From positions 1 to 64,000 of the forward strand of contig CACPFY010000001.1 of NCBI GenBank assembly GCA_902633335.1: DNA of 64,000 nt, read 5' to 3'. Source of the stretch: an uncultured Pelagibacteraceae bacterium (GTDB lineage: Bacteria > Pseudomonadota > Alphaproteobacteria > Pelagibacterales > Pelagibacteraceae). Below are positions 41,665 through 46,594 of the stretch, one piece after another. Numbering within the stretch: position 1 is the first letter of the stretch; every line of letters starts with the position of its first letter. The position numbers and the translations under genes are program-made. Under the pieces are notes generated by a model. That model saw only the letters and a list, made by a program, of their open reading frames with translations. It did no database searches and was not told the DNA's origin.

Positions 41665-42287
41665 ACTTTAGGTATTTCTTCACCTTTTTTAAGAAGATCG
41701 TAACCTTTTTTAACTTTGTCACGAGAAGAAACTTCATTGTACCATCTCAATAAATTTTTAAACTTTTTAAGACCAATATCATGCCACTCATGTCTCGCTA
41801 TCCAAGGAAAAGTAGCGATATCAGCAATGGTATATTCATCATAAGCTAAATATCTTGAATTTTTTAATCTCATATCTAACTCTAAGTAAATTCTTTCACA
41901 AATTTTAAAATATCTATCTTCTCCAAATTTACTTTTTCCAGGGTTGTAATGATGAAACTGATGATGTTGTCCTAACATTGGTCCAACATAAGCCATTTGA
42001 CCAATTAGCCATTGATTTATAATAGTTCTTTTATTTTGATCATAAAATTTTCCACTTTTTTCAGCCAGATAAATTAATATAGCTCCAGACTCAAACAGGC
42101 TAATATTTTTTTCATGATCAATTATAACTGGAATTTTTCTAAATGGACTTATTTTTTGAAAATCTGGTTTAAATTGCTCGTCTTTATTAATATTAATTTT
42201 TGTGATTTTATATTCATAACCAATCTCTTCAAGCATAATAGTTATTTTTTTACCATTAGGAGTATTTGAAGTTAAAACTTCAATCAT
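41661..42287 (-). CDS. Glutathione S-transferase family protein
   Basis: N-terminal thioredoxin-like fold with ...FRKIPVIIDHEKNISLFESGAILIYLAEKSGKF; C-terminal YTIADIATFPW. Confidence 0.88.
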   Translation of the reverse strand: MIEVLTSNTPNGKKITIMLEEIGYEYKITKININKDEQFKPDFQKISPFRKIPVIIDHEKNISLFESGAILIYLAEKSGKFYDQNKRTIINQWLIGQMAYVGPMLGQHHQFHHYNPGKSKFGEDRYFKICERIYLELDMRLKNSRYLAYDEYTIADIATFPWIARHEWHDIGLKKFKNLLRWYNEVSSRDKVKKGYDLLKKGEEIPKV

Positions 42288-43299
42288 TTTTTTACGCCAA
42301 GTCTATCATGAATTTCTTTAGAGGAGGTGGTGAACTGAAATCTATATTTTTCGTTAGGTCGGGCTCTTTTAAAACATTCAACTGACGCCAAGGCAGCTTC
42401 ATGAAAACCTGAGAGTATTAATTTAAGTTTTCCAGGATAACTACAAATATCTCCAACCGCATATATACCCTGTTTGTTTGTTTGAAAGTTTTCAGTATTT
42501 ACCTGTATTGTTTTTTTGTTCATATTCAAACCCCATTCTGCTATCGGGCCAAGTTGCATGATCAAACCAAAAAAACCTAAGATTATATCTGTCTCAATTT
42601 TTTCAGTTTTTTCATCATCATTTTTTATTTTAATAAATTTTATTTCTTTTCCTTCATTAATAGAGTCTATTTGAAACGGTGTTTTAATTGTTATTTTTCC
42701 ATCTGCTTTTAATTTTTCTAATTCTTTTAAAGTATGAGGTGCACCTCTAAATTCATTCCTTCTATGAATTAACGTAACTTTTGAATATTTTGAGAATTCT
42801 AATGCCCAATCTAATGCGGAGTCTCCGCCACCAAATATAGAGATTTTTTTATTTTTAAATAAAGTTTTATCAGTTACTGAGTAAAAAACTGATTTACCTT
42901 CAAACTTTGTAAGCTCTTTTAAAGGCAATTTTCTTGGTTCAAATGATCCTACGCCGCCAGCTATAATTATGTTTGGGGTGGCAAAGGTTTTATTGTTACT
43001 TGTTTTTAAAATCCATAAACCTTTGTCTTCTTTTATTTCCTGAACTCTTTCATTTAAATGAATCTTGGGCTTAAAGGGTTTTATCTGTTCTAATAAATTA
43101 TCTGTTAAAGACTTACCGCTGCATTCAGGAACAGCTGGAATATCATAAATTGGTTTATCAGGATAAAGTTCTATGCATTGACCGCCAGCTTTATCAAGAT
43201 TATCAATTACTTCTGACTTCAATCCTTTTATACCAAGTTGATGAACTGAAAAAAGGCCTACGGGCCCAGCTCCTATTATAACAACATCTGTTTTAATCA

Positions 43300-43300
<1 letters not shown>
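42284..43300 (-). CDS. Ferredoxin-NADP reductase / thioredoxin reductase-like flavoprotein
   Basis: VIIGAGPVGLFSVHQLGIKG; IFGGGDSALDWALE; YAVGDICSYPGKLKLILSGFHEAALA; lacks the CxxC of TrxB; downstream of ferredoxin. Confidence 0.9.
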
Positions 43301-43686
<386 letters not shown>

Positions 43687-43697
43687 TTATGATCTAA

Positions 43698-44468
43698 TTA
43701 TCTAGATGCTAATCTTGTATTTTGCATCGCAGCTGCCCAAATCACAAGACCAAAAGCGATCTTATTAATAAAGTCAGCAAGGTTGTAAATAATGTTTAAT
43801 GCATTAGCATCAACACCACCAGTTAAATAACCGAATACATATCCTAATGGATATATAGCCCAACCGATTGTTACGATAATTCTCATAGCGCTAAACGCAG
43901 TTGACATAGCCTTGTTACCAGACTTAGCAGCCGCAGTTCCAGCTTCACCTGAGAATATTTCAAACAAGATGTAAATCCATCCAGCCATTCCTATTACGAA
44001 ACCTACAAATGGTTGTATGTAACCAGCTTCACCTAAGTATCCACCGATTAACATTACTAAAGAACCAATTAATAGTTTCCAGAATATAGAAGTTGGCACC
44101 TTTCTTACAGCTGCCAAGATTAGATAGAATTCTACCATTTGAAGTGGAACAGTAATTAACCAGTCAATATATCTGTATACTGTTGGTGTATCACCAGTTG
44201 TCACCCAAACGTCTCGCATATACATGTAATGGATAAACGCAACACCAGTAACTAATCCAGCTACTGAAATTGATGTTCTCCAAGATGCTGCTACCGTACC
44301 TCTTTCTGCGAAAAAGAATACTGTAGTTGCGATCATACCCATTGACACAAGCCAGAAAGATATTCCTACGAAATCTCCTGTCTCAAGCATAGGCGTCGCA
44401 GCGTTAGCTGAACCAGTAATACCTAAAAAGGCAACTGCCGCTAAAGCTATTAGACTTAATTTTCTCAT
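43698..44468 (-). CDS. Proteorhodopsin (proton-pump type; Gln at the spectral tuning position)
   Basis: YRYIDWLITVPLQMVEFYLILAA (D97/E108 equivalents, Q105) and YNLADFINKIAFGLVIW (retinal Lys); signal peptide, seven TM helices. Confidence 0.98.
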   Translation of the reverse strand: MRKLSLIALAAVAFLGITGSANAATPMLETGDFVGISFWLVSMGMIATTVFFFAERGTVAASWRTSISVAGLVTGVAFIHYMYMRDVWVTTGDTPTVYRYIDWLITVPLQMVEFYLILAAVRKVPTSIFWKLLIGSLVMLIGGYLGEAGYIQPFVGFVIGMAGWIYILFEIFSGEAGTAAAKSGNKAMSTAFSAMRIIVTIGWAIYPLGYVFGYLTGGVDANALNIIYNLADFINKIAFGLVIWAAAMQNTRLASR

Positions 44469-44500
44469 GAAAACCTCCCTCGTTAGTTAGTTTTCTATTT

Positions 44501-44543
44501 TAGTTTATTAATAAACTATCTAGCAAATGACTAATTAGTCATT
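44501..44543. promoter_or_regulatory. Tandem perfect 18-bp palindromes in the proteorhodopsin upstream region
   Basis: TAGTTTATTAATAAACTA (44501-44518) and AATGACTAATTAGTCATT (44526-44543), each identical to its reverse complement. Confidence 0.6.
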
Positions 44544-44695
44544 ACTAGATTAGCTGGTCGGAACCATAATAAAAATCAGTGTTACAGTGAAGTCTTTTTT
44601 TTAAAAAAAAAGCCCATATTTATTGGTTTTTTTGGTTTTTTTTGGGGATATTTCTGTTTAGTATGGTTTAAACACATAATTTCATAGGAGACGAT

Positions 44696-46594
44696 TTGCA
44701 GGGCAAATATAAGGAAATATACGATTCTTCAATTAACCAGAAAGAGAGTTTTTGGAAAAATGTTGCTAAAGATATATTTTGGTACAAGAAACCATCAAAA
44801 ATTTTAAATTCATCAAACCCCCCTTTTTATAAATGGTATGAAGATGGAACTACTAACACTTGTTATAATGCAATAGATTTTCATATAGATAATGGTAGAG
44901 GGGAAAAGTTAGCTATTATTTACGATAGTCCAATTACAAACTCAAAAAAAACTTTCACTTACAATCAACTTAAAGAAAAAGTTTCTTTGTTCGCTGGAGC
45001 ACTGAAAAATCAAGGAATTAATAAAGGAGATCGTGTAATTATTTATATGCCGATGATACCAGAAGCTGTGATAGCAATGTTAGCTTGTGGAAGAATAGGC
45101 GCAGTTCATTCAGTTGTCTTTGGTGGTTTCGCCGCAAACGAATTAGCAAGCAGAATAGACGACTCTAAAGCAAAAATTATTGTTTCCGCCTCTTGCGGTT
45201 ATGAACCTGGACGAGTTGTTGAATATAAACCATTGCTTAACAAAGCTTTAGAACTTTCTAAGCACAAGCCGAATAAATGTATAATATTTCAAAGAGAGAA
45301 AAATAAAACAGTCTTAGACTCTAAAATTGATATTACATGGGATGATGCACTTAAAGGTGCAAAAAAAGAAGATTGTGTAGAAATGAATGCTAATGATTAT
45401 GCTTACATACTTTATACATCTGGGACTACTGGTCTACCAAAAGGTATTGTAAGAGATATAGGTGGACATATAGTGGCTCTTAAGTGGACCATGAAAAATA
45501 TTTACAACATTAATCAAGATGATGTTTGGTGGTCAGCAAGTGATATTGGATGGATAGTTGGTCATTCTTATATTGTATACGCCCCGTTATTTTACGGATG
45601 TACTACAATCCTGTTTGAAGGAAAACCAGTTGGAACTCCAGACGCTGGAGTTTTTTGGAGAGTAATATCTGAACATAAAGTAAAATCTTTATTTACAGCT
45701 CCAACTGCTATCAGAGCGATTAAGAAAGAGGATCCAGATGGTAAATTTTTCAAAAAATATGATTTAACTAATTTTGATACATTATTTTTGGCTGGAGAAA
45801 GAGCTGATCCTGATACTATTAAATGGTTTGAGAACTTATCAAATTCACCAGTAATAGATCATTGGTGGCAAACAGAAACTAGTTGGGCAATAACATCAAG
45901 TTGTACAGGCATAGAAAAATTTCCTGTAAAATATGGATCTGCTTTTAAACCTGTACCAGGATACGATCTAAAAGTTTTAAACTCTGAAGGAAAAGAAGTT
46001 GGGCCAGGAAAAATGGGAGACATCGTTGTGAAACTACCTCTGCCTCCTGGCACGTTTCCAACCTTATGGGGTGCAGATAAAAGATATAAAGAAAATTATA
46101 TGACAAATTATCCAGGTTATTATCAAACATACGATGCAGGACATATTGATGAAGATGGATATGTTTGGATTATGTCTAGAACTGATGACATCATTAACGT
46201 TGCTGGCCACAGGCTTTCAACTGGGGCAATTGAAGAAGTTCTTGCTGAACATAAATCTGTTGCTGAATGTGCAGTGCTTGGTATCGCTGATAAACTTAAA
46301 GGACAATTGCCAATTGGGCTTTTAGCGCTTAAAGCTGGAGTAAAACAAAAAAATGAGGAAATTATAAAAGAATGTGTCTCAATGGTTAGAGAAAAAGTTG
46401 GTCCTGTTGCAGCCTTTAAAATAGCTATTGTTGTAAAAAGATTACCAAAAACAAGATCAGGAAAAATATTAAGAGGCACTGTAAGAAAAATTGCAGATAA
46501 TGAACCTTATAAAATGCCCGCTACAATAGATGATCCTGCAATTCTTGATGAAATTAAAGAAGATTTAATTAAAAATAATATTTTAAAAACTTAA
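44696..46594 (+). CDS. prpE: Propionyl-CoA/acetyl-CoA synthetase (PrpE-like)
   Basis: AMP-binding YILYTSGTTGLPKGIVRDIGGH; DHWWQTETSWAI; RLPKTRSGKILRGTVR; TTG start with GGAG upstream. Confidence 0.88.
   Translation: MQGKYKEIYDSSINQKESFWKNVAKDIFWYKKPSKILNSSNPPFYKWYEDGTTNTCYNAIDFHIDNGRGEKLAIIYDSPITNSKKTFTYNQLKEKVSLFAGALKNQGINKGDRVIIYMPMIPEAVIAMLACGRIGAVHSVVFGGFAANELASRIDDSKAKIIVSASCGYEPGRVVEYKPLLNKALELSKHKPNKCIIFQREKNKTVLDSKIDITWDDALKGAKKEDCVEMNANDYAYILYTSGTTGLPKGIVRDIGGHIVALKWTMKNIYNINQDDVWWSASDIGWIVGHSYIVYAPLFYGCTTILFEGKPVGTPDAGVFWRVISEHKVKSLFTAPTAIRAIKKEDPDGKFFKKYDLTNFDTLFLAGERADPDTIKWFENLSNSPVIDHWWQTETSWAITSSCTGIEKFPVKYGSAFKPVPGYDLKVLNSEGKEVGPGKMGDIVVKLPLPPGTFPTLWGADKRYKENYMTNYPGYYQTYDAGHIDEDGYVWIMSRTDDIINVAGHRLSTGAIEEVLAEHKSVAECAVLGIADKLKGQLPIGLLALKAGVKQKNEEIIKECVSMVREKVGPVAAFKIAIVVKRLPKTRSGKILRGTVRKIADNEPYKMPATIDDPAILDEIKEDLIKNNILKT

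Follow-up and report, generated by a model that had tools for sequence, protein, structure and literature searches.

SAR11 bacteria are the most abundant bacteria of the ocean, and their rhodopsin gene is among its most abundant light-harvesting genes. In the stretch of SAR11 DNA analyzed here (64 kb; hereafter, the window), the region upstream of a proteorhodopsin gene carries two adjacent palindromes of 18 bp, raising the question of whether these are operators of a dimeric regulator, stem structures of the 5′ untranslated region (5′UTR), or products of chance in A/T-rich DNA. Both are perfectly self-complementary: the proximal palindrome, TAGTTTATTAATAAACTA, occupies positions 44501-44518, and the distal one, AATGACTAATTAGTCATT, positions 44526-44543, with a gap of 7 nt between them. 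They end 33 and 58 nt upstream of the rhodopsin ATG (position 44468, minus strand), as the original prediction had it. That prediction also correctly located the CTAG tetranucleotides flanking the distal palindrome (44520-44523 and 44545-44548); these are, however, not separate sites but the basal pairs of a longer stem.

Chance does not account for the pair. Dinucleotide shuffles do yield about 1.3 perfect palindromes with half-sites of at least 9 bp per 64 kb, and the window contains only these two, but a pair separated by no more than 20 bp appeared in none of 60 dinucleotide shuffles of the window. Similarly, when the local 132-bp region was shuffled, one such palindrome arose in 0.15% of the shuffles and two in 0 out of 20,000. 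Since the shuffles yield no tandem pair, the pair exceeds chance even at 29% G+C, and the original observation is confirmed. The exact proximal sequence is present in a single copy in the 949-kb genome. Conservation refutes the chance reading altogether, making it vanishingly improbable: a perfect palindrome of 14-22 bp occupies the place of the proximal one in 163 of 164 distinct rhodopsin leaders, compared to 1% of shuffled stretches.

To characterize this conservation, we collected the rhodopsin upstream regions of relatives and aligned 108 distinct ones. Read on the rhodopsin (minus) strand, the distal palindrome belongs to a hairpin designated P1 and the proximal one to P2, followed by a third hairpin, P3, just before the ATG. 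The locus comprises the following features:

44566..44571, minus strand: predicted −10 element TATTAT, conserved among relatives and placed as in HTCC7211
44466..44553, minus strand: whole leader including the ATG, the single match in the genome to covariance model R1 (E 2.8e-13)
44518..44550, minus strand: P1 stem-loop, which holds the distal palindrome 44526-44543 and both CTAG as basal pairs (sense-strand fold, G-U bias, covariation)
44502..44517, minus strand: P2 hairpin, corresponding to the proximal palindrome (AGTTTA-TTAA-TAAACT; full palindrome 44501-44518; palindrome conservation)
44469..44495, minus strand: P3 hairpin, GAAAAC-loop-GTTTTC
44474-44481, minus strand: Shine-Dalgarno sequence GAGGGAGG, in the P3 loop except for its last G
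43698..44468, minus strand: proteorhodopsin coding sequence (256 aa), downstream of the leader

The P1 hairpin bears the signature of RNA rather than of DNA. Its sequence is not conserved across clades and its loops have no sequence in common between them, yet the stem is still formed (9-15 bp in the examples listed). A DNA dyad or cruciform would treat G-U and A-C alike, whereas a stem in the sense RNA accepts only G-U. Consistently, in 95 of 108 leaders, P1 folded alone is more stable on the sense than on the antisense strand (mean folding energy −12.4 vs −7.4 kcal/mol; mean z −3.4 vs −2.1), with 224 G-U pairs on the sense and 31 on the antisense strand. When 89 leaders were aligned by sequence alone, 77 G-U and 0 A-C cells fell in the five basal pairs of P1; such cells are not independent events, so that these counts give a direction and not exact probabilities. 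The same sense-strand bias is found in 50 out of 54 further leaders from other genera. Dimeric-repressor operators share with the leader palindromes perfect dyad symmetry near a promoter, but P1 preserves pairing rather than half-site sequence between relatives and tolerates wobble on one strand only, and the operator reading of the distal palindrome was accordingly abandoned. In the leaders of one clade (L150-L157), the P1 loop contains GAGGGAG, the letters of the downstream Shine-Dalgarno sequence.

Covariation leads to the same structure, with the strongest support for P1. The P1-P2-P3 structure pairs 96.4% of cells in a set of 18 sequences from a single clade, compared to about 33-55% in slid-structure controls, and the observed number of double changes was reached in 0 of 500 shuffles. 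Across 78 distinct model-aligned leaders, both sides changed in 18 of 25 pairs, with 246 both-side-change cells against 60 in shuffles, the alignment in this case leaning towards the model. A mixed-clade alignment (A1, RNAalifold) lost P1, as MAFFT had shifted its 5′ arm between clades; P1 was recovered with a single-clade alignment (A2) and the covariance model. P3 covaries weakly because its helix has few variants, the longest being GAAAAC/GTTTTC in 92 leaders, AAAAAC/GTTTTT or AAAAAAC/GTTTTTT in 60, and GAAAC/GTTTC in 2. The comparison among relatives, which the original prediction had proposed as its own refutation test, thus returned half-sites that are conserved or covarying, the opposite of the refuting outcome. 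Between 10 and 25 °C, P1-P2-P3 is the minimum-energy fold of the predicted transcripts of the window and of the HTCC7211 match; P2 of the window is lost at 37 °C. P2 and P3 are A/U-rich, weak hairpins, with mean pair probabilities at 20 °C of 0.68 and 0.53, respectively (162 leaders), and the Shine-Dalgarno sequence in the P3 loop is 42-57% paired in the ensemble. A search for an intrinsic terminator or attenuator was negative: no stem rich in G+C precedes a run of T, and the sequence after P2 is A-rich.

A published transcription start shows that the hairpins are part of the message. An mdRNA-Seq study places the PB7211_669 transcript of Pelagibacter sp. HTCC7211 at 529616-530457 (PMC5069720, Table 2). 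The rhodopsin stop codon of genome G206 ends at 530457, precisely the end listed for this transcript, and from the matching coordinates we infer that G206 is HTCC7211. The listed coordinates include the 5′UTR, because the 2325 nt given for glcB equal a 162-nt 5′UTR plus 2163 nt (PMC5069720). With the rhodopsin ATG of G206 at 529690, the 5′UTR is 74 nt long and begins ATCTT-GGTTTAGG-TAAA-CCTAAGCC-TAGTTTATATAAACTA. The in situ start thus lies 5 nt upstream of P1, and therefore all three hairpins are transcribed in the G206/HTCC7211 match. The −10 element TATTTA, with TGT in front of it, ends 7 nt before this start, which ranks tenth among SAR11 starts in situ (PMC5069720). By analogy, transcription in the window is predicted to start near position 44558, giving a 5′UTR of approximately 90 nt. 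Of the two possibilities raised originally, operators or stems, the 5′UTR stems are upheld by the covariation, the sense-strand G-U pairs, and the HTCC7211 start upstream of both palindromes.

Several further features surround the leader in the window. The motif CTTCACT (44586-44592, minus strand), located approximately 15 nt 5′ of the predicted −10 element, shows strong conservation within the clade of the window; its distance from the −10 element is shorter than is normal for a −35 box, and it may be an activator site. Another conserved block, TTATCCCCAAAAAAAAAC (minus strand), lies at 44600-44660, between the leader and a divergent gene starting near 44696. Directly 3′ of the rhodopsin gene, ferredoxin-like and thioredoxin-reductase-like genes, identified by eye, follow with short gaps (42284-43656, minus strand) and possibly form an operon with it behind the same leader.

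Of 297 genomes of the order searched with R1, 211 contain the leader; these belong to genera g1, g33, and g36, and those listed have one match each. Matches with E above 0.01 and three antisense matches were taken as noise. All 60 same-family matches fetched stand directly before the rhodopsin gene. In a class-wide sample of 289 genomes, only two gave matches, that of the window and another of the same family. Locus similarity to named records places genomes of the HIMB058 and AAA795-E07 types in the window's clade. Rhodopsin genes of a second family of the order (f2) do not have the leader. Their upstream regions (L089, L170-L189) display an A/T palindrome, TAATTTTATAAAATTA, TAATTTTTAAAAATTA, or TAATTTATAAATTA, directly before the Shine-Dalgarno sequence, followed by AGGGG; the center of this palindrome varies, with symmetry kept in most. 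No Rfam family scored above its gathering score for the leader, we found no description of a SAR11 rhodopsin leader in the open-licence literature, and rhodopsin goes unmentioned in the 2009 paper that screened P. ubique for structured RNAs (PMC2704228). The kind of element, a structured mRNA leader, is known; the RNA family itself appears to be new.

P2 presents a different picture from P1. Of the 108 distinct upstream regions, 107 have a perfect palindrome of 14-20 bp that lies 25-35 nt upstream of the ATG, and the sole exception among all 164 leaders (L081) has a change in an arm. The arms are AGTTTA/TAAACT in nearly all of the 108 aligned leaders, and the core is TTAA, TATA, ATAT, or AATT depending on the clade, cores of 2 and 6 bp being rare. 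On the rhodopsin gene tree, the core state has changed at least 12 times, an approximate count from a quick tree with many open forks and with recombination ignored. When 397 genomes were scanned with the core left free, no asymmetric core was encountered among the leader-like matches listed, and the three matches listed with other cores lacked the rest of the leader. A plain hairpin gives no account of this symmetry, as loop bases need no self-complementarity; candidate causes are a symmetric binding partner, pairing between mRNAs, or templated repair of the palindrome.

Under one such reading, which we regard as markedly unlikely, P2 would be, additionally or instead, the DNA site of a symmetric, rhodopsin-specific dimeric regulator, P1 remaining RNA. 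Invariant arms and the persistence of a self-complementary core despite about 12 changes do look like selection on dyad symmetry, the inner P2 pairs contain no G-U, and a gene-specific regulator would need no further genomic sites. However, P2, like P1, lies within the transcript, downstream of the start, its half-sites are separated by 2, 4, or 6 bp rather than by a fixed spacing, and P2-like sites show no excess over a reversed-pattern control in ten genomes, disposing of a P2 regulon; in its own genome, a two-mismatch scan retrieved even fewer sites than the control (234 vs 288). A classical operator is thus disfavored, and the operator reading of the proximal palindrome is unlikely, even though its symmetric core is otherwise unaccounted for. 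Alternatively, the symmetry could be mutational, with template switching during replication repairing imperfect palindromes and no symmetric partner involved. Such repair of quasi-palindromes is known in other bacteria, and the two halves of the core change in concert, no intermediates having been observed; but the neighboring P1, an inverted repeat of comparable kind, has many mismatches and wobbles, and repair alone does not give sequence-conserved arms, leaving this a rather unlikely explanation. There is, finally, an outside chance that P2 is selected for full self-complementarity including its loop, in which case paired rhodopsin mRNAs or a symmetric protein would make the leader self-sensing, with rhodopsin output depending on the level of its own message.

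A comparably small probability as for mutational symmetry attaches to the leader being a riboswitch or an RNA thermometer. In fourU and ROSE thermometers, a weak A/U hairpin lies at the ribosome-binding site, and P3 is likewise a weak A/U hairpin at that site; the letters of its Shine-Dalgarno sequence, however, are mostly in the loop and not in the stem, and mostly unpaired in the predicted fold. A switch by alternative P2/P3 pairing is improbable in silico, with a probability of approximately 0.015. SAR11 bacteria do have riboswitches on other genes (PMC2704228, PMC5069720), and the cis-regulatory RNAs of P. ubique (SAM-V riboswitch and the rpsB, ffh, and pntA elements; PMC2704228) resemble the rhodopsin leader in being conserved structured RNAs before a SAR11 gene. 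The latter, in contrast, has no conserved ligand-type loop letters, the P1 loops differing between clades.

Collectively, these results establish a conserved, transcribed, rhodopsin-specific mRNA leader of three hairpins, and the palindromes are very probably hairpins of this structured 5′ leader of the SAR11 proteorhodopsin mRNA, with putative roles in protecting the message and controlling ribosome entry. A precedent is provided by ompA-type leaders, in which 5′-terminal stem-loops stabilize mRNAs; as in SAR11, the ribosome-binding site of a highly expressed membrane-protein gene follows a hairpin located at, or close to, the 5′ terminus. The SAR11 leader differs in having three hairpins, the middle one self-complementary and the last enclosing the Shine-Dalgarno sequence, and its effect on decay is putative. 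P1, at or close to the 5′ terminus of the mRNA, would together with P2 shield the message from 5′-end-dependent decay, whereas P3, with the Shine-Dalgarno sequence in its loop beside the start codon, would set the ease of ribosome entry. The combined effect would be to fix rhodopsin output at a high level, tuned post-transcriptionally; temperature might adjust it, as might RNA chaperones such as cold-shock proteins, which have been proposed as translation regulators in SAR11 (PMC2864753). Such a mechanism fits a gene that is highly expressed and, in culture, reportedly constitutive and not light-responsive (PMC3090418), in bacteria whose protein levels often diverge from mRNA levels (PMC2864753). 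The invariant P2 arms, the always self-complementary core, and the weakness of P2 and P3 count against this explanation.

These findings suggest that SAR11 rhodopsin is tuned after transcription, with the conserved leader on its mRNA offering a concrete, testable site for such control. The leader is also an additional RNA element, not represented in the Rfam release searched and carried by most of the genomes sampled from a dominant marine order.
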